This document shows, piece by piece, positions 34,433 through 47,720 of a stretch of 64,000 bases of DNA. The stretch is from NCBI GenBank assembly GCA_902592275.1, contig CACJDW010000002.1, positions 124,001 through 188,000 of the forward strand, read 5' to 3'. A program made the translations under genes and the position numbers. The DNA comes from an uncultured Pelagibacteraceae bacterium (GTDB taxonomy: Bacteria > Pseudomonadota > Alphaproteobacteria > Pelagibacterales > Pelagibacteraceae). The notes beneath the pieces were generated by a model. The model was not told the DNA's origin and searched no databases. It saw only the letters and a list, made by a program, of their open reading frames with translations. The stretch's first letter is position 1. Every line of letters begins with the position of its first letter.

Positions 34433-34652
34433 GATTTTCTTTTAAAAAATCAATATATTTTATTACTTCATCGAATTTTTCGTCAGGAATATCTTTGTAA
34501 CTAGCATTAAATTTGCTCTTCACACAAATTGCAACATGAGCGTAGGGGTTTCTTCCTTTAGGGTGATTTGGGTGATCAGGTAATTGCCCCACTAAATAAT
34601 CGCCAGCTTCCTGAATAATTTTCCAGAGTTTACTTGCGTTTTCTTTGTTCAC
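34425..34652 (-). CDS. 75-residue protein of unknown function, intact copy at island edge
   Basis: A 75-aa protein, start GTG at 34652. The C-terminal stretch FNASYKDIPDEKFDEVIKYI resembles in pattern the ORF6C-like end of phage regulatory proteins, a weak recollection only. The first 19 codons after the start are repeated exactly at 44.2 kb, where a truncated copy starts with ATG. The left copy therefore seems to be the old gene, with its original upstream region now at 44.27 kb; the insertion changed its start codon from ATG to GTG and cut it off from its promoter. Function unknown. Confidence 0.65.
   Translation of the reverse strand: MNKENASKLWKIIQEAGDYLVGQLPDHPNHPKGRNPYAHVAICVKSKFNASYKDIPDEKFDEVIKYIDFLKENPS
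34594..34651 (+). repeat. 58-bp direct repeat, left copy (A)
   Basis: These 58 bases are identical to 44208-44265, 9614 bases away in the same orientation. They lie within the first 19-20 codons of the 75-residue gene. Identity stops one base before the end of the start codon (CAC here, CAT at the right copy) and at 34593/44207 on the other side. They mark the ends of the accessory region. Confidence 0.95.
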
Positions 34653-34669
34653 ACTTCACTAAATCTTGC

Positions 34670-34745: not shown

Positions 34746-34822
<77 letters not shown>

Positions 34823-34846: not shown

Positions 34847-37800
34847 TTATTTAATTGTGTCAACAATTGCTTTTTCTTTATTATTTAAACCATACAATTC
34901 ATAAATATAATTATTTAAATTACTTTCATTTTGCTCATTTGGAGCATTAATAAGTAAATCAACCATCTTTTCAATTTTAATTTTTTCATTGGAGCTGGGT
35001 TTTACAACTGGAAATTCTGAAATTGTATCTACTTTACACATATAACCTCCATCATCAAACATTCTCCCAACTTTTTTAAAATACCATTTATGAACATTAC
35101 TAGAATAAATTCCAACAAGATATTTTGCGTACTTATTGTCTGCAACAAAATTACAAGATGCTTCTAAAAAAATATCTTTATCAATTAATGAAAACTTCCA
35201 CCCACGATTCATATTCATCCATCCAACCTTTGTTTGATTAAAATCAGAAACAAAAGATGTTCCAGGTCTTTGTAGTACATACCATTCATACCTAATTCCT
35301 GTTTCTTGCTCATTCCTTCGGTTTAAATCCTCTTTGAAATTTAAAAGATATTTATATAGGGATTTATATTCTTTTTTGAAAGCTAACTCCGCTTCATCTG
35401 ATGCTCCATTTATACCTTCAGCATCTAATGGAAAATGCCACGGAATATATAAAAGATAATCTAATCCTTTATCATATGTATATTTATACATATTTTTACC
35501 TCTTACGATTTTCTTTATTAACAATTGATTTTTTTTATCCTCATTAATTAATTGTTTTCGTACTTTTTCATTTATTAAAAAAACACTATTAAGTCCTGTG
35601 GTAATACCACGACGGAATTTATTACGTGGAAGATCTAATTTATTTTTTATATTTTTTATTTTTGTAAGAAGTAAATTTTCATCTCCATGAGATATAGCCC
35701 AAGAACTAAGTAAATTTTCTCTTTTAAGAGTAATGTTTTCATTTTTTAATGTATTCTCAAAATTTTGATATTTATCAAAATCACTGATTTCACAAGCTTT
35801 AATTGTTTTACTTGAACCTTTTTTTAATAAAACTATTGATGTATCAACTGAAGCTTTTTTAAATATTTGCAAAGATTTAAAATCAATTAATTGAATAATA
35901 TTACATTTATCTAAAAAAAAATTTCTCAACAAGGAACCATATGCAGACTTTAACCATTTGTTTGAAGTTATATATGCAAGGCAACCTTTGTCATTAAGAA
36001 GTTCTCTTCCTTTCTCAAAAAATAAACAATATAAGTCAGCATTTCCTGTGAACACTTTATATTCATTTTTTAGATTACTTTTATAAAGACGATCTTTTAT
36101 TTTCTGTATCTGAACGTAAGGTGGATTTCCAACAATTAAATCAAATCCTTGTTTTTGATCGAAAACTTCTTGAAAAAAGATTTTAAAATCAAAGGAAACT
36201 TGCCCATCCATTATAGAGTTAAATTGAAAATCAATTTTTTTTTTTAATTCTAATTTCTTTTTAATATTAGTAGTTTGAAAATATTCATTTTTTAATAATG
36301 CAATTTCATCTTTTTTTTCAAATCCTAATAAATTTGACTCAAGGCTTAATAAGCTATCACCTTTAAAAATTTTATAATCTAAATTTGGAAGTGGTAGTAT
36401 TTTGTCATAATCCTCTTCATCAAGTATTAATGATAACCACAATCTCAATTTTGCTGTTTCGATTGCAGAATCCTCTATATCAACTCCATAAATAGAATTT
36501 CTTATAAAATTCCTTTTTAAAAGATAACTTGTTCTTTTTTTATCATTATAAAAATTGTTTAGACTCAAACGTATAGAAACACATAAATTCATTAATTCTA
36601 CAGGAAATTCACCAGATCCAATTGCTGGGTCACAAATCTTAATATTTTTAATTTTTTCATCAATCAGTTGATAGTTCTTTTTAATAAAATTATTTTGTTT
36701 AAAGTTATAAATATTTTTAACTAATTGATTGATTGTAGTTTTGTCATCACCACCAACTTCGTTAATTAAATAATTAATTAATGCTTCCTCACAAATATAT
36801 TTAGCTATCTTTCTTGGCGTATAAAATGTTCCTTTAGATTTTTTATCCTTGATATCTAATAGATTTTCAAAAACTTTTCCAAGCATCTCTGGATCTATTG
36901 CTACTTCTTTTTCTTCAGGATCTTCCTCTTGAATTGTAAAATTATACATTTCAAAATTATCTAATATTTCATTAATAAGTCCGTTTGATATTGTAATTTT
37001 TGTATCTAACCAATTATAATTTTTTATTGGATCAAATAGGCCACCATTTAAAAAAGGAATTTTTGTATCAAGTTTTGAATAATAATTTTCAGGCAGGTCA
37101 GTTGAAAATGCAACAAAAAGTGGCTCTAAAACATCATTGAAAAAGTTATCATATTTACAGTATTTTTTGTTAAACAAATTTCTTATAAAATTTTTATCAC
37201 CAGATCCCCATTTTTTAAAAACACTGTCTTCATTTTTTTTTATTCCAAGCCATCCTTTTTTTTGTAAAAAATAAATAAATACTAATTGTCCTAGTAATTT
37301 TTTAGAAAACTCTTCTATAGTGATTTTATTTTCTTCAAAAGTATTTTTTATATTTTTATCTTTTTTTATTAGATTTTCTAATTCATCATATAATTTTAAA
37401 TATAATTTTTTATATGTATTAAAGAAATCATCAGTAATTTTATCAACATTAAATGCACTTAATATATCTTCAATTTTTAAATTATCTTTTTGATTAGAAA
37501 GCAAATGCAATCTTTCAGCTGGAGTTACGCAGGACTCATTTTCTCCTAAAAGATAGGTATATCTTTTTGGAGCTGTTTCAACTTCTATAATGTTTCCCTC
37601 TTGGTCAAAATCAGAATATTTTGAGGAAAAAGTTAATCTATAATCACTTCCTTGATTGTCAAAAACCACGAGTACACCATGGCTAGAATATTGATCAATA
37701 AATTTAGTAACTAGATTTCTTAATTCTATTTTATTTTTATATATGTTTAAGTTTTTTGTTAATTTTAACTCAAATAAGGATACAGTTTTATTATCGTTTA

Positions 37801-37969
37801 AATTTAAATTTCCTAATTGGATAAAATCTAAAACTTTCTCATTATTAGTTTGTATTTTTTTTGGTTCTTTAAAATACTCAACATCTTTAAATATTTTTTT
37901 TGCAAGAGACTTCCAATCCTCTCTATCGTATTTTTTGTTTAGTATTTGTTTGATTTCTTGTTTTTGCAT
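34847..37969 (-). CDS. Eco57I/PglX-like adenine DNA methyltransferase
   Basis: A 1040-aa protein of the large N6-adenine methyltransferase type. TFYTPRKIAKYICEEAL (about residues 375) precedes motif I DPAIGSGEFPVEL (about 447-459) and the catalytic motif IV NPPYVQI (about 613-619). The C-terminal about 350 residues look like a TaqI/Eco57I-type DNA recognition region. The N-terminal about 150 residues include VSLFELKL, which might be a remnant of a D-ExK nuclease, but no clear partner Asp is assured. It overlaps the helicase gene end by none and starts one base before the helicase stop, so they are one operon. Likely the modification arm of a defence system. Confidence 0.88.
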   Translation of the reverse strand: MQKQEIKQILNKKYDREDWKSLAKKIFKDVEYFKEPKKIQTNNEKVLDFIQLGNLNLNDNKTVSLFELKLTKNLNIYKNKIELRNLVTKFIDQYSSHGVLVVFDNQGSDYRLTFSSKYSDFDQEGNIIEVETAPKRYTYLLGENESCVTPAERLHLLSNQKDNLKIEDILSAFNVDKITDDFFNTYKKLYLKLYDELENLIKKDKNIKNTFEENKITIEEFSKKLLGQLVFIYFLQKKGWLGIKKNEDSVFKKWGSGDKNFIRNLFNKKYCKYDNFFNDVLEPLFVAFSTDLPENYYSKLDTKIPFLNGGLFDPIKNYNWLDTKITISNGLINEILDNFEMYNFTIQEEDPEEKEVAIDPEMLGKVFENLLDIKDKKSKGTFYTPRKIAKYICEEALINYLINEVGGDDKTTINQLVKNIYNFKQNNFIKKNYQLIDEKIKNIKICDPAIGSGEFPVELMNLCVSIRLSLNNFYNDKKRTSYLLKRNFIRNSIYGVDIEDSAIETAKLRLWLSLILDEEDYDKILPLPNLDYKIFKGDSLLSLESNLLGFEKKDEIALLKNEYFQTTNIKKKLELKKKIDFQFNSIMDGQVSFDFKIFFQEVFDQKQGFDLIVGNPPYVQIQKIKDRLYKSNLKNEYKVFTGNADLYCLFFEKGRELLNDKGCLAYITSNKWLKSAYGSLLRNFFLDKCNIIQLIDFKSLQIFKKASVDTSIVLLKKGSSKTIKACEISDFDKYQNFENTLKNENITLKRENLLSSWAISHGDENLLLTKIKNIKNKLDLPRNKFRRGITTGLNSVFLINEKVRKQLINEDKKNQLLIKKIVRGKNMYKYTYDKGLDYLLYIPWHFPLDAEGINGASDEAELAFKKEYKSLYKYLLNFKEDLNRRNEQETGIRYEWYVLQRPGTSFVSDFNQTKVGWMNMNRGWKFSLIDKDIFLEASCNFVADNKYAKYLVGIYSSNVHKWYFKKVGRMFDDGGYMCKVDTISEFPVVKPSSNEKIKIEKMVDLLINAPNEQNESNLNNYIYELYGLNNKEKAIVDTIK

Positions 37970-40900
37970 TTAATTGTATGACTCTGAAATTATAATTTCA
38001 GGAATAGTTTCATCGTTTATTTTTTGCGTATTATTTATATCTTCCAAAGGAAATTTTTTAAGTATTCTCAATAGACCATCAATTGTTTGAGTAATTTTTA
38101 ATTTAGTCTTTTTTGATAAGTTTTTATGTCTATTTATTTCTCTTTGTAATTCTATAAATCTTGAGTCTCGAATACATTTTTTAGCCATAAGAATTTTTTC
38201 TTTCTCAACTAAATTAAGAAAATCTGCTCTAGAACATAAATCTAAAAAAGCTAAAGCCTGTTTGCTTTGAGGACCAAGAGTTGTGTTAACACCTTGATTT
38301 TCAGAAATTTTTTCATATTGTTCCTTTTCAAATTCTTTGAGAGCTATATCGACTTGTAAGTGATGATTTTTATGCAATTGAATTGCTTTTTCATCCTTTT
38401 TTGCTTTAAAAATTTTAATTGTTTCAACAAATGTTTTTGGATGAACATTTTTTTTTTCATCCACAAGATAAAATCCATTTCTCTTTTCACTTCTAATAAA
38501 AGAAATAGTACTATTTTTTAATAAATTATTTTTTCTTCCAACACGTTGTCTTTTAGACATGTTTAAAATTTTTCTATAGTAAATTTCATTATTTTTTTTA
38601 AATTCTCTTAAGTCCATCAGAAAAGAGAGTTTTTCATTTTTCTCCTCTTCAATATCTTTATCAAATATTCCAAAAGTTTTTGTTTCTTCAGCTTCATGAT
38701 AAATTTGACTATCTTCACCTAAAGCTTCATGAAATGATTGTAACTTTAAAAAAGCTTTTTGTTCTAATTTAATATCTCCTTCTACATTTGAGGTAGGAAA
38801 AAAATTAAACACATGAATTTTATCTGCTTTACTTCCAATTCTATTAACTCTACCTATTCTCTGTATCAATCTAGTTGAATTCCAAGGGGTATCATAGTTA
38901 ATTATAATATTGGATCTATGTAAATTAATACCCTCAGCTAAGACTTCCGTTGTTATTAATATATTATAATTATTTTCCTTCTCTCCATCAAAATTTTCGT
39001 CAAATTCTGTTTGTAGTTTGGATTTTAATTTGTGTCTATTAGATGCATCAATATTTAATATTTTTTCAAAACCATCTTTTTTAAGTCTATTTAATAAATA
39101 ATCAGTTGTTACTTTAGCCTCTGAAAATATCACAACTTTACCACCAGTGTTCAAAGGTTTTTTAAAAAGATTATTTTTTAAATTGTTAATTAATATTTCA
39201 TATTTTGGATCTTCTTTTACATCTTTCCATTGATCATATAATGGTTCTATAAGTTCATAATCTTGTTTTAATTTTTTTAAAAAATCCTTATTAAAATCTT
39301 CTGGTTTATAAATATCCCCTTTGCTATCGTCGTTTAATAATATTTTTTCTAATTCTTCTTCACGATCCTCTAGAACATATTCCGAAATATCAATACTTTT
39401 CAATCCTGGAAGAATAAATATTTTTTTATTTTCAAATTGTTTTATTTTAGATTTAAGTTTAATCAAAAAGTTATAAAGAGATTTTTTAAAAGCCTCGAAA
39501 CTACTATCGAGTCTTTTAACCAACAGTGTTTTCATTATGTCAGCAAGTGCAGAATATGCTACTTCAGGAATTTCATACTTTTTTCTTGCTTCTGGGTTTA
39601 AATTTTTAATTTCATCATAAATAACGTAGTTTAGCTTACTTATGATAATAAAAGTTTTGTCATAAAGCTCCTCAAGATTTTCCTCTAAAATATAAAAAAC
39701 TTTATTAGGCTTTCCCACTTTTGGAAAAATTATTTTTTGATCATCTAAATTCTTTTTATATTGTTCAATATTCATAAGGTCAGTTCTGGTTCTTCTGATC
39801 ATGATTTGAGATATAATTTTTTCTCTTATTGAACCGTATATATCTTTTACTTGTTCTTTAATTACTTGTTTATCTTGTTCTTTACTTAATGCCTTGTACT
39901 GCTTGATTTTTTGATTAAAAAAATAATCTATATTTGAAATTTCTAAGGTTGAATTCTTTCCATCTTGAAATAATAAAATTTGATTTTTAATATCCTCTGG
40001 AGAGTTATTTAATGGAGATGCTGAAATTAAGATAATTTTTTTCTCTAGAATTGAACCATCATCTAATTTAAAATTTGTTGGTGTTTTACACAATTTTTGT
40101 AATTCATTATAAGAGTCTGCTGTATTAGATCTAAATTTATGGGCCTCATCTACAATAATTAAATCAAATGATCTAGGATCATATGCTGGTTTTTCATATA
40201 ACCAGTGAAAACTTCTATTTGGTAAAAATAAATAGTTTGGCAATCCAAAATCTTTTAAAACTTTCTCCCAATCATCCCTAATTGTCTGAGGTGCAATTAT
40301 TAATGTCTTATTTATTTTTCCCTCATATTTATGAAGATCATAATTAAATAATTTTTTGGCAATTAAAGTTGCTATTATGGTTTTACCAGTTCCAACTACA
40401 TCTGATAAAAAAAAACCTCTATGTTTCTGTAAAAGCGAAAAACCTTCGTTAACAGCATCTGCCTGGTAATCTAATTTTTTATAGTTTGGAGGAAGATCGT
40501 TTATTGAACTTGGATCAAAATCAACACTTGATCCAAAGTATTCGATTAACATTTTATAATAAAGTTCATAAGGTGTAATACTGTCCGATAAATATGTTTC
40601 ATTGATTAATTTTTTAATATTTTCTTTAACTACCTCAGCTGGAAGAATTTCTATTGACTCATTCCATAATTTTTCAAATTCTTTTGATGCATAATTCACA
40701 TCATCATAATCTCTAAGCTCAACATTAAATTCATAATTAGATTCAGGTAAAGCCCCTATACCAGTAGCAGATAAATTCGATGAGCCAGTTATTACACTGC
40801 CTGAGTTATGTTTGTTAAATGGTTTTGGTTTAAAAATATATATCTTAGCATGAATATTTTTAGATGGATGGGCTGCAATTTCTATTTTTTTGGAACTAAT

Positions 40901-41245
40901 ATCTTTAATAAATTCCAAAATACCTTCTTCAGTTTCTTTATTGTATGGTGAATTTTGAATATCACTTTTAAGATCTTTGTTTAATTCCTCTAAAATTTTT
41001 TGTTCATTGGTTGCAAATTCTAATCCAATTTGATGATAATGTTTGATGGCTTTATCAACATTAATTCCAACAAGTATTCTTATTTTAGGAACTTTTTTTA
41101 AAAATTTTCTGATCTTAAAATATCCTGAAGCTCTTAAATATCCAACCAAAGCATCAAAATCGTTTACTTTGGTGTATTTAAAAATACCCTCAAATTTTTT
41201 ATAGAGAGTGTTATCACCTTGATTTGTAAAAAATTTTGTAGTCAT
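37970..41245 (-). CDS. PLD-nuclease/SNF2-helicase fusion protein
   Basis: A 1091-aa protein. An N-terminal phospholipase-D-like domain has HAK at about residue 131 and GSSNLSATG about 25 residues later, the HxK...GSxN core of PLD nucleases. A SNF2-type helicase follows: VVGTGKTIIATLIAKKLF (about 282-299), VDEAHKFRS (about 365-373), LISASPLNNS (about 408-417), and C-terminal ITTEVLAEGINL (about 760) and QRIGRVNRIG (about 793-802). The rest is charged and helical. Together with the downstream methyltransferase it forms a candidate ATP-dependent restriction or phage-defence pair. It resembles parts of DISARM (helicase, methylase, PLD) but drmA and drmB are absent. Confidence 0.87.
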   Translation of the reverse strand: MTTKFFTNQGDNTLYKKFEGIFKYTKVNDFDALVGYLRASGYFKIRKFLKKVPKIRILVGINVDKAIKHYHQIGLEFATNEQKILEELNKDLKSDIQNSPYNKETEEGILEFIKDISSKKIEIAAHPSKNIHAKIYIFKPKPFNKHNSGSVITGSSNLSATGIGALPESNYEFNVELRDYDDVNYASKEFEKLWNESIEILPAEVVKENIKKLINETYLSDSITPYELYYKMLIEYFGSSVDFDPSSINDLPPNYKKLDYQADAVNEGFSLLQKHRGFFLSDVVGTGKTIIATLIAKKLFNYDLHKYEGKINKTLIIAPQTIRDDWEKVLKDFGLPNYLFLPNRSFHWLYEKPAYDPRSFDLIIVDEAHKFRSNTADSYNELQKLCKTPTNFKLDDGSILEKKIILISASPLNNSPEDIKNQILLFQDGKNSTLEISNIDYFFNQKIKQYKALSKEQDKQVIKEQVKDIYGSIREKIISQIMIRRTRTDLMNIEQYKKNLDDQKIIFPKVGKPNKVFYILEENLEELYDKTFIIISKLNYVIYDEIKNLNPEARKKYEIPEVAYSALADIMKTLLVKRLDSSFEAFKKSLYNFLIKLKSKIKQFENKKIFILPGLKSIDISEYVLEDREEELEKILLNDDSKGDIYKPEDFNKDFLKKLKQDYELIEPLYDQWKDVKEDPKYEILINNLKNNLFKKPLNTGGKVVIFSEAKVTTDYLLNRLKKDGFEKILNIDASNRHKLKSKLQTEFDENFDGEKENNYNILITTEVLAEGINLHRSNIIINYDTPWNSTRLIQRIGRVNRIGSKADKIHVFNFFPTSNVEGDIKLEQKAFLKLQSFHEALGEDSQIYHEAEETKTFGIFDKDIEEEKNEKLSFLMDLREFKKNNEIYYRKILNMSKRQRVGRKNNLLKNSTISFIRSEKRNGFYLVDEKKNVHPKTFVETIKIFKAKKDEKAIQLHKNHHLQVDIALKEFEKEQYEKISENQGVNTTLGPQSKQALAFLDLCSRADFLNLVEKEKILMAKKCIRDSRFIELQREINRHKNLSKKTKLKITQTIDGLLRILKKFPLEDINNTQKINDETIPEIIISESYN

Positions 41246-41328: not shown

Positions 41329-42426
41329 ATGAAAAAAATTAGATATAGAAAAATTCTTTTTGAGAGATATTTAGTTTTTAAGGATTTAATACAATTAGAG
41401 TCAGATGCTTATGGTTATTGGCCTAATTATAGACCAATGAAATATTTTCATGATGACTGGGCAAAAAAAATTTTAAAATTAAATAAAGAAATAGAAAAGT
41501 TTCCCTCAAAACATAGATATGACCATCAATTTATTACTGAGTTATTAAAATATAACTTAAAAATGTATCGTAATGGAGAGTACTATTCGACAACTTTTTT
41601 GAAAACACTTATTCCCGTTAATTTAAATAAGAAATCACTTATAAATTTATTAAAGCATATAAAGTATTTTAGAGATGCAAGAATGGATACTTTAATGGGC
41701 TTTATAGTTATGAGAGCTAGGTTAGAGGAAATGATACTTAATTTGTTTTTTTTGTTTAAATCAAAAAATTTAATCAAATTAAAAAAATGGAATGATTTGT
41801 TTGTTTTGATTCATAAAATAAATTACTCAAATTATGATTATGAAATTGGTTTAAAAATTAGAAAAAGAGATAGAAAATTTAAAAATTTTTTAGAAAAGAT
41901 AATTAAAAAAGACAGTAAATTACACATCAATGATATGATTAAATTTGTAATAAGTAAAAAAACTTTAAAAGACGATTATCGCCCAAGCTTTTATGCCAGT
42001 GAAAAAGAAGCTATTGAAAATCAAAATAAATATTTAAGTAAAAAAGAAATTTTAAATTTAAAAAGATTTAGTAAATTTTTAGATTCAAGTAAAGATATAA
42101 GAAAATTTGGTAATTTCTCTTTGAAACCAATTGTAGAACTGTATTCGCTTCTAAGTGATGAATTACATCCTAATAATCTATTTTTGAGAAATATATTAAC
42201 CTCTACAAAATCAGATGTTGAGTTATCTATAATTCTTAAAGATCACATTCAGAAACTTTATAAATGTAGTGAATTTATTACAGATACTTCTGAAATAATT
42301 TACAAACAAAATATAGGTATTTTAGATTTTTTTATAAATAAGATAGATGGCTCAAAAAAAGATAAATTAATTTTAGATGGTTTTAATCAAAGTGTTCAAA
42401 ATAATTTAAATAAATTTAAAAAATAA
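41329..42426 (+). CDS. 365-aa mostly helical protein of unknown function
   Basis: Not recognised. It is Lys/Ile/Asn-rich, without signal peptide or membrane segment, and appears helical throughout. Near residue 270 is YSLLSDELHPNNLFLR, a pattern seen in HEPN-like DUF5677-type proteins where Tyr, Ser and HPN are conserved; the usual catalytic Arg of RxxxxH is not evident. It is divergent from the PLD-helicase with 83 bases between starts, in the defence island, so a toxin-like or accessory role is possible but unproven. Confidence 0.65.
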   Translation: MKKIRYRKILFERYLVFKDLIQLESDAYGYWPNYRPMKYFHDDWAKKILKLNKEIEKFPSKHRYDHQFITELLKYNLKMYRNGEYYSTTFLKTLIPVNLNKKSLINLLKHIKYFRDARMDTLMGFIVMRARLEEMILNLFFLFKSKNLIKLKKWNDLFVLIHKINYSNYDYEIGLKIRKRDRKFKNFLEKIIKKDSKLHINDMIKFVISKKTLKDDYRPSFYASEKEAIENQNKYLSKKEILNLKRFSKFLDSSKDIRKFGNFSLKPIVELYSLLSDELHPNNLFLRNILTSTKSDVELSIILKDHIQKLYKCSEFITDTSEIIYKQNIGILDFFINKIDGSKKDKLILDGFNQSVQNNLNKFKK

Positions 42427-44197: not shown

Positions 44198-44266
44198 CTA
44201 GCACCCCAAATAATCGCCAGCTTCCTGAATAATTTTCCAGAGTTTACTTGCGTTTTCTTTGTTCAT
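44198..44266 (-). pseudogene. truncated copy of the 75-residue gene
   Basis: ATG at 44266-44264 starts 19 codons identical to those following the start codon of the gene at 34425-34652, then the frame leaves the match and stops at TAG (44200-44198) after 22 residues. The upstream 11 bases to the stop of the 155-aa gene suggest that these two formed an operon before the insertion. Confidence 0.75.
44208..44265 (+). repeat. 58-bp direct repeat, right copy (A')
   Basis: Perfect match to 34594-34651. It carries the original-looking ATG context of the truncated gene copy. Confidence 0.95.
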
Positions 44267-44277
44267 ACAGTTTAGTT

Positions 44278-44745
44278 TTATCTAAAAAATAAATTTTTTC
44301 TAATATCTATAATTTCTCTGATCTGTTTGTCTTTAATAGCATTCCAAGAAACAAATAAAGTACATAATTGATACAAGGCAAATATCTCATTTTTTTGATT
44401 TTGTGATAAATTACTATCTGCTTCAACATAGTTTTCAAAATAAGAAATTTTATTTCTTGCACAGTTTAAATAATATTTACAAGCATCTGTTACTGTAGCA
44501 GTTGACCACCAGTTAGAGTCTCTGAAAAGATTAGATATTTCTTGATAGAAAGAACTTGTTTCAGAAATAGTTAAATCTTTTTGAACATTTTCTGAAAATT
44601 GATCTAATTCAAATTGAATTAAAGCTAATATCTTTTTTTCGCTACTTCTCTTCACAAGTAGTTCAATGACATTTTTATATGACATTGATTGGATTTTATT
44701 CCAATTTTCAAAAAAATCATTTGGTGCTTTGTTGAGATCACTCAT
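44278..44745 (-). CDS. 155-aa protein of unknown function
   Basis: Not recognised. A soluble, helical 155-aa protein; it contains NWWSTATVTDACKYYLNCARNK in the middle (key residues W-W, C, C). The ATG at 44745 is preferred over a GTG 36 bases upstream, since neither has a clear ribosome site but ATG is the normal start. It lies 11 bases before the truncated gene copy and is probably part of the old chromosomal neighbourhood of the 75-residue gene. Confidence 0.6.
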   Translation of the reverse strand: MSDLNKAPNDFFENWNKIQSMSYKNVIELLVKRSSEKKILALIQFELDQFSENVQKDLTISETSSFYQEISNLFRDSNWWSTATVTDACKYYLNCARNKISYFENYVEADSNLSQNQKNEIFALYQLCTLFVSWNAIKDKQIREIIDIRKNLFFR

Positions 44746-44844
44746 ATTTTTTAAAATTTTTAAATTTACTATTGAAATCACACTAAATTAACTATGCCAA
44801 TATTAACAGTTTTAATTTTAAATTTTTAGTCTAGTGGAAATTAA

Positions 44845-46272
44845 ATGAAAAAATTATTTATATTTTTATTTATATTTTTAAATATTGTCAATTATTCCAA
44901 GTCAGACGATTTCTTTGAAGATATAACTTATCAAATATTAGAAAATCAACCTAGATTAAGTTATGGCGTGTCTGTTTCGGACGTAAACAATGATGGTAGC
45001 TTTGAATTTATAGTTACTGGATTTGGATTTAATAATTTAGCCTTAGCTCATAAAAAAGGTATTTTGTTTAATTCAATTGACCAAAGTATATTTGTAGACA
45101 AAAATCGTAAAACAATAGGAGTAGCATCTTGTGATATTGATCAAGATGGTTATGAGGAAATATATTTTTTAAACACAGACACTTATAGTGGAAACAAAAG
45201 ATATTCTGACAGATTATTAGATTTTGATGGAAATAAATTTTTCGATTTATTTGAATTAGAAATAAACCAGAAAAATTTAAATCTTACAGCAGGTAGATCA
45301 GTTGTATGTGTAGACAGAAATGGAAATGGAGCTTATGGAATATATGTTGCAAATTATGGAGGACCAACAAGATTTTATGAAAAAGATGGAAATGAAATAA
45401 TAGATAAAGCTTCGAAGCTAGGTATTGATAAAATTACTGGAGGAAGAGCAGTTATTTCAGGAAATATTTTATCTGGAAGATCAGATATTTTTGCTGCCAA
45501 TGAGAGAGGAGAGAATTTTTTATATTATAATAATAGTGGAAATTTTGTTGAACTTGCAAAAGATTATGCTGTTGATGATACATTTCAAAACGGGCGTGGA
45601 ACTGCGCTAAGCGATATTTATTATAGAGGTAGATTAGATATATTAACTTCAAATTGGGAAGGGCCTCACCGAGCATTTGTTTTAAAAAATGATAAGTTTG
45701 TAGACATAGCTGACAAACCATTTAGCGCCCCATCGAGAATTAGAACAGTAATCTCTGCTGATTTTGATAATGATGGTTATGACGAAGTATTCATGAATAA
45801 TATTGGTGAGCCAAATAAATTATTTAAGATTTTAGATAATGGTGAGTTTAAAGAAATAAATATTCAAAATGCTTTAGAAACTAACGGATTAGGAACAGGA
45901 GCTGCAGTAGCAGATATAGATGGTGATGGAATACTTGAACTTTTAATAGCTCATGGTGAGTCAGGTTATCAACCTTTAACTTTATACAAGGCAAATTCAA
46001 AAAATAATGATTATTTAAGAATAAAACCAATTAATATTTATGGAGCTCCGGCAAGGGGTGCCACAGTTACACTTATTTCAAATTTAAGAAGTCATTCCAA
46101 AACAATAGATGCAGGCTCGGGTTACTTGTGTCAAATGGAGCCAGTGGCACATTATGGAATTCGAAAAAATGAGAGAAATATTAAAATTTTGGTCACTTGG
46201 ACAAATGGTAAAGAAGATATTTTTGAAATTAAAAATTTAAATGAAACATTGGAAATTAAACAAAATAATTAA
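44845..46272 (+). CDS. exported FG-GAP/UnbV repeat protein (CRTAC1-like)
   Basis: A 475-aa exported protein with a signal peptide (MKKLFIF to about NYSKS) and repeated calcium-binding FG-GAP/VCBS units of the type D-x-N-x-D-G (for example VNNDGSFEFIVTG, DIDQDGYEEIYF, DFDNDGYDEVF, DIDGDGILELL). The C-terminus has the ASPIC/UnbV-like domain with ARGATVTLIS and GSGYLCQMEPVAHYG, then IKILVTWTNGKE. Such beta-propeller proteins are extracellular or periplasmic and can bind glycans or proteins. Function here unknown. The next gene overlaps by 32 bases. Confidence 0.85.
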   Translation: MKKLFIFLFIFLNIVNYSKSDDFFEDITYQILENQPRLSYGVSVSDVNNDGSFEFIVTGFGFNNLALAHKKGILFNSIDQSIFVDKNRKTIGVASCDIDQDGYEEIYFLNTDTYSGNKRYSDRLLDFDGNKFFDLFELEINQKNLNLTAGRSVVCVDRNGNGAYGIYVANYGGPTRFYEKDGNEIIDKASKLGIDKITGGRAVISGNILSGRSDIFAANERGENFLYYNNSGNFVELAKDYAVDDTFQNGRGTALSDIYYRGRLDILTSNWEGPHRAFVLKNDKFVDIADKPFSAPSRIRTVISADFDNDGYDEVFMNNIGEPNKLFKILDNGEFKEINIQNALETNGLGTGAAVADIDGDGILELLIAHGESGYQPLTLYKANSKNNDYLRIKPINIYGAPARGATVTLISNLRSHSKTIDAGSGYLCQMEPVAHYGIRKNERNIKILVTWTNGKEDIFEIKNLNETLEIKQNN

Positions 46273-46972
46273 TCTTTTTATAAAAAAATTTTTGTTAATA
46301 ATATGTACTGCACTTTTAGTTTTGTCTTATAACTCAAGTTTAGAAGCACAAGAAAGAAATTATTATCAAGAATTAGTAAATGAGTGGAGTAAAATATTTC
46401 CAGATAGAAATAGAAACGCTGCTGGTCCAAAATTTTTTAAACATATATTAAATAAAGATATTACGTATCAAGAATTTGTAGAGTTTAATAAACTTTATTG
46501 TGCTGTATCTGGTTCTTTAATTGATCCTAACGCTGTACCTGAAAAAGTATATTTAAAAGAAGTCAACACAAATAAAAAAATTTGTGGGGATTACTACAGA
46601 TGCTGTATTCCATGTTCTTGTGATGTAATGAAATATTCAAAAGTTGAAAAAATGAAACATAAATTTAGAGATATCGAAAAAGAGTTTTATGTTTTAACAA
46701 TTAAAAACCCATGTGGTAAAAAAAATTTTCCAAAACAAGTAAATAGAGATTACTTTTGTGATGGTGAAAGTTTATCAAAAGATCAAGTTATAGAACTAAA
46801 TAATAGGCTGGTTATTGGCTTATTTCATAAAGCTAAATCTTGCGACAAATCTGAAATTGTCAAAATTGACAATCATCAGGTTACAGGTTTGTTTTGTGAA
46901 TTTAGAAACAATACGCCTGATGAAGAGTTGCAAAGTGGGATGGGAGATATTTTTATAAAATTGGCACGATAA
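46241..46972 (+). CDS. exported Cys-rich protein of unknown function
   Basis: A 243-aa protein with an N-terminal hydrophobic segment (FLLIICTALLVLSY, about residues 17-30) following Lys pairs, ending near SLEAQE, so it is probably exported. The body has many Cys, notably CCIPCSCD at about residues 122-129, plus Cys at about 87, 116, 163, 178, 205 and 224. The long overlap with the previous gene suggests that the real start could be a few codons later. Unknown function; the FG-GAP neighbour may be a partner. Confidence 0.65.
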   Translation: MKHWKLNKIINLFIKKFLLIICTALLVLSYNSSLEAQERNYYQELVNEWSKIFPDRNRNAAGPKFFKHILNKDITYQEFVEFNKLYCAVSGSLIDPNAVPEKVYLKEVNTNKKICGDYYRCCIPCSCDVMKYSKVEKMKHKFRDIEKEFYVLTIKNPCGKKNFPKQVNRDYFCDGESLSKDQVIELNNRLVIGLFHKAKSCDKSEIVKIDNHQVTGLFCEFRNNTPDEELQSGMGDIFIKLAR

Positions 46973-46982
46973 TTTAAGAAAA

Positions 46983-47720
46983 ATGAGTAAAGAAAAAAAT
47001 ATTAAAACGTATGAAATTTTTAAACAAGATAGATTTCTAAGTATTCTTGTTCATTTGTTGACTGGATTTGGAATTGTTGCTGGTTTCTTTGCTTTAATTG
47101 CTGTTATGAATAACAACCAAAAAGAGGCCTTTCTTTGGCTTGGGTGTGCATTTTTAATAGACAGTGTTGATGGGTCTTTAGCTAGAAAATTTAATGTGAA
47201 AAAAAATCTACCACATATTGATGGCAAAATGCTGGATAGTATAATTGATTTTTTTAACTATGTCATAATACCATCAATAATGATTTATTGGTTTAGGTAT
47301 GTACCAGACCAGTTTATTTTATTAATTCCTGTAATTTTGATTTTTATTTCTATTTATTCTTATGTGAATTTGAATATTTTAACAAAAGATAATTACTATA
47401 ACGGTTTCCCTGCTATTTGGAATGTAATTGTACTTTACTTTTATATCTTTGGCACTAGCCAAAATTTTAATCTGATATTTTTAATTTTATTAATATTACT
47501 TAAATTTTCTCCTTTAAAATGCATTCATCCTTTAAGAGTTAAAAAATTCAAAAGTTTATCAATTCTTTTTGCAATCTTTTGGTTCATTACTTCAATTTTG
47601 CTAATTTTAATAAAAGATTTGAATATTAACCCAGTATATGAGGTTTTCTTAATGTTGTTATGGGTTGTTTCAAATATTTATTTTATATCTGTAAGTATAT
47701 TTAAAACATTCAGAAATTAA
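46983..47720 (+). CDS. pcs: CDP-alcohol phosphatidyltransferase, phosphatidylcholine-synthase type
   Basis: A 245-aa membrane enzyme with about seven to eight hydrophobic segments. The CDP-alcohol phosphotransferase motif DGSLARKFNVKKNLPHIDGK continuing to MLDSIID (Asp 63, Gly 64, Ala 67, Arg 68, and the last two Asp) is present. Overall layout and the HIDGKMLDSIIDFFNYVI region match bacterial phosphatidylcholine synthase, which joins choline directly to CDP-diacylglycerol. A phosphatidylserine or glycerol phosphate type is less likely. Ten bases after the Cys-rich gene; convergent with the next gene. Confidence 0.8.
   Translation: MSKEKNIKTYEIFKQDRFLSILVHLLTGFGIVAGFFALIAVMNNNQKEAFLWLGCAFLIDSVDGSLARKFNVKKNLPHIDGKMLDSIIDFFNYVIIPSIMIYWFRYVPDQFILLIPVILIFISIYSYVNLNILTKDNYYNGFPAIWNVIVLYFYIFGTSQNFNLIFLILLILLKFSPLKCIHPLRVKKFKSLSILFAIFWFITSILLILIKDLNINPVYEVFLMLLWVVSNIYFISVSIFKTFRN

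Follow-up and report, generated by a model that had tools for sequence, protein, structure and literature searches.

The 64,000-nucleotide stretch analysed here (the window) comes from contig CACJDW010000002.1 of an uncultured bacterium of the Pelagibacteraceae, a SAR11 lineage, whose genome assembly measures 1.15 Mb and is 84% complete. It carries two neighbouring minus-strand genes, here called HEL and MT, which an earlier note, made from the DNA letters alone, had singled out as a candidate two-gene defence system. Both open reading frames (ORFs) are full length and abut as that note described, the HEL stop codon ending at 37970 and the MT ATG starting at 37969. The two genes and their parts are as follows.

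37970..41245, minus strand: HEL, PLD nuclease and SNF2-family ATPase, 1091 aa (ORF, Pfam, AlphaFold2 model)
40661..41245, minus strand: PLD-like nuclease domain of HEL, residues ~1-195 (Pfam, alignment)
38711..40531, minus strand: SNF2 ATPase core of HEL, residues ~239-845 (Walker A at ~285-289, DEAH at 366-369)
34847..37969, minus strand: MT, 1040 aa, N6-adenine methyltransferase of the Eco57I class that includes a target recognition region of its own (ORF, Pfam, AlphaFold2 model, fold comparison)
37535..37969, minus strand: N-terminal region of MT, residues 1-145, PD-(D/E)XK-like by secondary structure; putative HEL-docking region
34850..36109, minus strand: region of MT after the NPPY motif, residues ~621-1040, holding the exchangeable target recognition domain (TRD)

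Pfam recognises PLDc_2 (4.7e-8), SNF2-rel_dom (8.8e-8) and Helicase_C (8.4e-19) in HEL. The motifs to which the earlier note had pointed are borne out by alignment: H132, K134 and GSSN 154-157 of the PLD domain are invariant in all 73 aligned HEL sequences, as are G285, G287, K288 and T289 of the Walker A motif and the D, E and H at positions 366, 367 and 369 of the ATPase. The AlphaFold2 model of HEL (mean pLDDT 82) matches the ISWI and INO80 remodellers in its core (Z about 26, 3.1-3.5 Å over about 400 residues), in a fold search that was dominated by the ATPase and barely covered the PLD and C-terminal parts. In MT, Pfam recognises Eco57I (2.2e-42) and MmeI_Mtase (2.2e-10), with a weak, sub-threshold TaqI_C match in the C-terminal region. 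The methyltransferase residues D447, P448, GSG 451-453 and NPP 615-617 are invariant in 59 of 59 MT sequences. The best fold match of the MT model (mean pLDDT 84) is CamA (Z 31.5, 4.1 Å, 544 residues), followed by BrxX (27.4, 3.8 Å, 683 residues), MmeI (25.2, 4.2 Å, 672), LlaGI (24.7, 6.0 Å, 554) and LlaBIII (24.5, 6.2 Å, 581). Sequence searches of the PDB returned general helicase and methylase relatives and nothing more specific.

HEL and MT travel together. Among 397 Pelagibacterales genomes, with a clear HEL defined as a match over 250 bits and an MT as one at E 1e-30 or better, HEL is present in 10, MT in 10 and both in 9. The genes are adjacent in seven of these nine, and those of the other two (G305 and G224) are split at contig ends, in pieces that show adjacency. 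The HEL of G305, from the same genus group, is 76% identical to that of the window. The two unpaired cases, a HEL in G275 and an MT in G278, are both cut at contig ends; the latter was considered as a form of MT lacking the N-terminal region, and this was rejected, the sequence being truncated by the contig end. Beyond the order, a single-protein search of genome contigs confirmed no relative, unlike an alignment query using HEL alone, from which the best 80 of 572 loci were kept. These 80 lie mainly in Bacteroidota, and also in Verrucomicrobiota, Cyanobacteriota, Acidobacteriota, Pseudomonadota and others. A same-strand MT stands downstream of HEL in 74 of the 75 loci with room for one (73 by blastp, L081 by tblastn; the exception is L088), so the PLD-helicase and methylase pairing pointed out in the earlier note is indeed a repeated one. 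The gap from HEL stop to MT start is at most 30 bp in 52 of 73 loci.

The association extends to viral contigs, where HEL scores at least 284 bits in 13 of 15 loci and MT is adjacent or one gene away in 12 of the 13, downstream in ten and upstream in two (the exception is L234). As a control, 52 viral loci found through MT, on contigs partly shared with the first set, were counted by eye. MTs with the N-terminal region were accompanied by a HEL of at least 507 bits in 15 of 16 cases (the exception is L255). For the 36 MTs without that region, HEL scored near 400 bits in two, 256-289 bits in six and 73 bits in one, and was absent in 27, a negative count inflated by contig edges (L270 and L274), by short upstream sequence in a few more and by near-identical prophage copies. 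A Fisher test run on counts made by eye, without the contig-edge rows L270 and L274, has non-independent rows, and no weight is placed on its p-value.

A tree of HEL relatives (57 rows, quick method, SH-aLRT support only) places the paired HELs in one group (26 rows, support 98), with some distant pairs and the HKD-Snf2 proteins linked to type III systems as its neighbours. Outside the group fall two rows scoring as DrmD and seven labelled HmaA, six of them lying near a DUF499 match and one (L190) labelled by likeness only; some branches are long, so the deep order is unsure. In a phylum-wide sample, HEL relatives (E 1e-20) occur in 20 of 397 other genomes: G423 falls within the paired group, G467, G625 and G718 hold more distant helicase-MT pairs, the helicase of G749 is partnered by a Type_ISP_C methylase, and the remaining 15 mostly resemble a type III layout, by a Pfam check in L059 only.

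The two proteins also vary together, to a degree that differs along MT. Over 65 loci, Mantel correlations between HEL and successive MT regions, from the N-terminus to the TRD, were 0.87, 0.61, 0.47 and 0.18, values reached by 0, 0, 0 and 1 of 999 shuffles, respectively. MT identity is clearly lower after NPPY than before it in 24 of 26 pairs with HELs at least 80% identical, pairs that overlap and so are not independent. Near-identical HELs come with MTs that are mostly alike up to NPPY and 20-41% identical thereafter; in three Prevotellaceae pairs with 99% identical HELs, MT identity is 92-95% before NPPY and 23-29% after, and the lowest HEL identity in any 40 columns is 0.93-0.95. Profiles of seven close pairs show MTs alike to about NPPY and unlike after it; identity often dips shortly before the motif, and in two of the seven it recovers at the very end. 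Judged from these alignments, the pattern after NPPY is cassette exchange of the TRD. Given that the closest pairs show no variable block in HEL, this protein probably lacks a recognition domain.

Some loci appear to keep a second TRD in reserve. An opposite-strand TRD fragment follows MT in 5 of the 80 genome loci and 3 of the 15 viral loci, other loci in part ending too soon beyond MT to reveal one. Inverted repeats of about 30-306 bp are present at all eight spare-TRD loci, followed by a Resolvase-type recombinase in six. Pfam recognises TaqI_C in the two spare fragments examined and Resolvase in the three recombinases examined. The full arrangement of inverted spare TRD, inverted repeats and then a Resolvase-type serine recombinase is seen at L120, L125, L128, L132, L137 and L238, where it likely represents phase-variable specificity; at L235, L242 and L314 the inverted spare TRD and repeats have no recombinase recognised directly behind them, the TRD fragment at L314, from Prevotella nigrescens, having a 47-bp inverted repeat. 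No spare TRD copy was found in the window.

From the conservation of the PLD residues, the HEL-MT co-variation, the TRD exchange and the spare TRDs, we infer that MT modifies and aims while HEL makes the ATP-driven cut. A methylase, a specificity domain, an SF2 motor and a nuclease are encoded together, as in ATP-dependent restriction-modification systems in the broad sense. The best reading, close to the compact ATP-dependent restriction system proposed in the earlier note, is that HEL and MT are the subunits of such a system, with a probability of roughly 0.7; here we infer the restriction itself, together with a physical complex of the two proteins, methylation-sensitive cleavage, translocation and the restriction of phages. 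The exchangeable C-terminal TRD would bring MT to a DNA motif, in which MT would methylate an adenine and so protect the host. At unmethylated sites on phage or plasmid DNA, MT would recruit or license HEL, perhaps via the MT N-terminal region. HEL would then act as an SNF2-type motor on double-stranded DNA, driven by ATP hydrolysis, and would cut by means of the PLD domain, probably in dimeric form by analogy with SauUSI, an enzyme composed of PLD, SF2 ATPase and TRD that is described in PMC7913695 as translocating on and shredding DNA.

Several observations weigh against this reading. HEL occurs without a recognised MT at L088 and at the viral L234, and L255 has the MT N-terminus and no HEL. 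The co-variation of the N-terminal region is not strict, as some close HELs are paired with MTs that diverge from end to end: before NPPY, MT identity is 41% for L113/L114 (HEL 97%), and likewise low for L113/L121, 48% for L019/L020 (HEL 91%) and 38% for L127/L129 (HEL 83%). In more distant pairs HEL is also weak in stretches, with a lowest 40-column identity of 0.40 at 81% overall. The glutamate that follows HxK(x)4 in SauUSI is replaced in HEL by R, L, K, Y or I. Finally, TRD exchange taken alone also fits a phase-variable methylase.

The N-terminal region of MT bears on the first alternative. The earlier note had counted a PD-(D/E)XK nuclease among the missing parts, and this needs correction. 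Residues 1-145 are predicted to run α-helix, three β-strands, α-helix and β-strand, an order that by our reading matches the PD-(D/E)XK fold, the fold search having reached only residues past ~140. MT could thus be a self-contained type IIG enzyme, with PD-(D/E)XK cutter, methylase and TRD, and HEL an accessory remodeller or backup nuclease. Methylase and TRD lie in one chain as in type IIG enzymes. In favour of this alternative, PADLOC calls MT type IIG (577 bits), MmeI and BpuSI are among the fold matches of the whole model, and the window MT has D59, E67 and K69. However, this acid-acid-K set is present in only 5 of 59 MTs, the window copy among them, so the N-terminus is not a conserved active site and the region is apparently mostly non-catalytic. 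As the PLD residues are invariant throughout, the conserved nuclease is that of HEL. Together with the near-constant presence of HEL beside viral MTs that bear the N-terminus, this makes a self-sufficient type IIG enzyme unlikely.

A second alternative is a phase-variable epigenetic regulator, in which methylation by MT is what selection maintains and HEL serves for DNA access or for clearing bound proteins. The switching of TRDs would suit it. So might a Prevotella intermedia locus, if it is homologous to the HEL-MT family: there PMC5608340 describes two genes labelled 'type IIG' that follow an SNF2/RAD54 helicase, and one of them, expressed alone, gave N6-methyladenine at GGYGAB. The invariant nuclease residues of HEL argue against a purely regulatory role, as do the RhuM, DUF1016 and KilA-N genes embedded in relatives' loci. 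Such genes are seen in type I restriction-modification operons. We regard the regulator as improbable.

The remaining alternative is a reduced relative of DISARM, BREX or Hma that operates as those systems do, its missing partners being encoded elsewhere in the genome. The earlier note had reported none of drmA, drmB, pglZ or brxC. That statement can be extended for some components: no DUF499, no MZB/DUF1998 (drmB; the control gave a signal in 8 of 14) and no PglZ (the control gave a signal in 2 of 14) was found in the window's own genome, at its 84% completeness, and drmA, drmC and brxC were not searched one by one. At 15 loci with DUF499, the MT profile matched none of the ORFs, some loci being cut by contig ends, and HEL matches reached 143 bits or less; the only HKD-like helicase beside a DUF499 gene (L184), adjoined by a methyltransferase-sized ORF, falls outside the paired clade on a long branch. 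DISARM class 1 (DrmD, DrmMI, DrmA, DrmB, DrmC) also combines an SNF2 helicase, a PglX-like methylase and a PLD nuclease, whereas here the PLD is fused to the helicase and the MZB/DUF1998 protein was not found in the genome as assembled. BREX-Related Type-2, or Hma, is presented in PMC12839542 as an HKD nuclease fused to a Swi2/Snf2 helicase, with an N6-methyltransferase and DUF499; it is built on the DUF499 ATPase, for which the present genome gave no match. A descent of this kind is the least probable of the three, because, although DrmD and HmaA are among the best PADLOC and NCBIfam matches of HEL, DrmMI and PglX score on MT and BREX-Related Type-2 makes a comparable pairing, the NCBIfam scores are far under cut-off (DrmD 157 of 610 bits), the partners were not found and the HEL clade stands apart in the tree.

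Other known systems share parts of the design. The type ISP enzymes LlaGI and LlaBIII join motor, N6-methyltransferase and TRD in one machine, and MT aligns to their methylase-TRD half; here, however, there are two polypeptides, PLD replaces the N-terminal PD-(D/E)XK nuclease and there is no Type_ISP_C match. In SauUSI and in CglI/NgoAVII an SF2 ATPase works a PLD nuclease, according to PMC7913695. SauUSI differs in that it lacks a methylase domain and itself contains a modified-base TRD; in CglI/NgoAVII the PLD and a B3 TRD share one subunit and the ATPase is another. Type III restriction-modification loci with DUF4391 and HKD-Snf2 (PADLOC C3a139) hold a PLD-SNF2 protein of ~1090 aa, but this belongs to a neighbouring lineage of the tree and is partnered by DUF4391, Mod and Res (Pfam, L059 only); the C3a139 model scores 434 bits on L059 and 145 bits on L079, a locus that belongs to the paired clade. 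PADLOC has no close model for HEL, and in the open-access literature we recognised no paper defining the two-gene unit, the nearest being the two on BREX-Related Type-2 and Prevotella intermedia cited above. We put at about even odds the more specific proposal of a distinct restriction-modification class, in which a specificity-free PLD-SNF2 motor nuclease would be aimed by a type IIG-derived methylase, the largely inactive PD-(D/E)XK-like domain at the N-terminus of that methylase would have become the docking platform, and TRD swaps or serine-recombinase inversions would retarget modification and cleavage together.

The pair lies in an island, as the earlier note had supposed, with these further features.

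34594..34654, strand not assigned: 61-bp direct repeat at the left boundary of the island, forming the 5' part of a small gene on the minus strand
34746..34822, minus strand: tRNA-Met(CAT) inside the island
41329..42426, plus strand: 365-aa ORF, divergent from HEL, island passenger
44208..44268, strand not assigned: the same 61-bp direct repeat at the right boundary, 98% identical to the left copy

The island spans about 9.6 kb between the repeats and is AT-richer than the left flank. The close sibling G833 has a single repeat copy at the site and no insert. The left copy is open with a GTG start, and the right copy is a short gene fragment. Elsewhere in the same genome a stretch is 87% alike over 103 bp to the island tRNA-Met region, and G833, G184 and G026 have one related copy each, at other sites. 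At four other SAR11 loci (L018, L020, L021 and L024), tRNA genes (Leu, Val, Ser and Thr) are found no further than about 220 bp from HEL-MT. No integrase was recognised among the island ORFs scanned with Pfam. We take the island to resemble the tRNA-carrying integrative islands known as tycheposons. At L223 and L226, a stretch of 60-140 bp is present in repeated copies, at the same genomic site in siblings, which suggests successive cassettes between repeats. A further segment of the window, about 3 kb at 44734-47720 with an FG-GAP/UnbV protein and its neighbours, is also missing in G833.

The 365-aa gene, which the earlier note had suggested as a member of the module, has no relative in the loci compared and, on that comparison, is not a conserved partner of HEL-MT. 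At the limits used, neither it nor the 102-aa and 167-aa ORFs matched Pfam, PADLOC or NCBIfam, and the two shorter ORFs likewise lack relatives in those loci. In two SAR11 genomes a relative of the 186-aa ORF lies upstream of HEL; since DNA similar to the region of this ORF occurs at the same site in the sibling G184, where there is no HEL match, the ORF belongs to the variable region. Among relatives, with families assigned by Pfam on one member each, a RecF/SMC-like ATPase family (single-linkage) occurs in 24 of 80 loci, often after MT (e.g. L075:16869-18824), and is a putative optional third component. An XRE-type family is present in 12 loci, mostly before HEL, and RhuM, DUF1016, KilA-N or Schlafen-AlbA genes lie between or near HEL and MT in some. 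None of these accessory families was found in the window.

The analysis sets a recurrent two-gene module apart from the general run of 'type IIG' methylases and 'SNF2-related proteins': a probable defence system that has the same form in many bacterial phyla and could be given a new target by exchange of a single block in the MT gene. It also offers a testable idea, that of one motor nuclease serving many targets. If this is true, the targets of the motor could be predicted from the methylation motifs of these MTs, and the loci with inversions would act as phase-variable defence switches. SAR11 bacteria carry such modules on small, variable islands.

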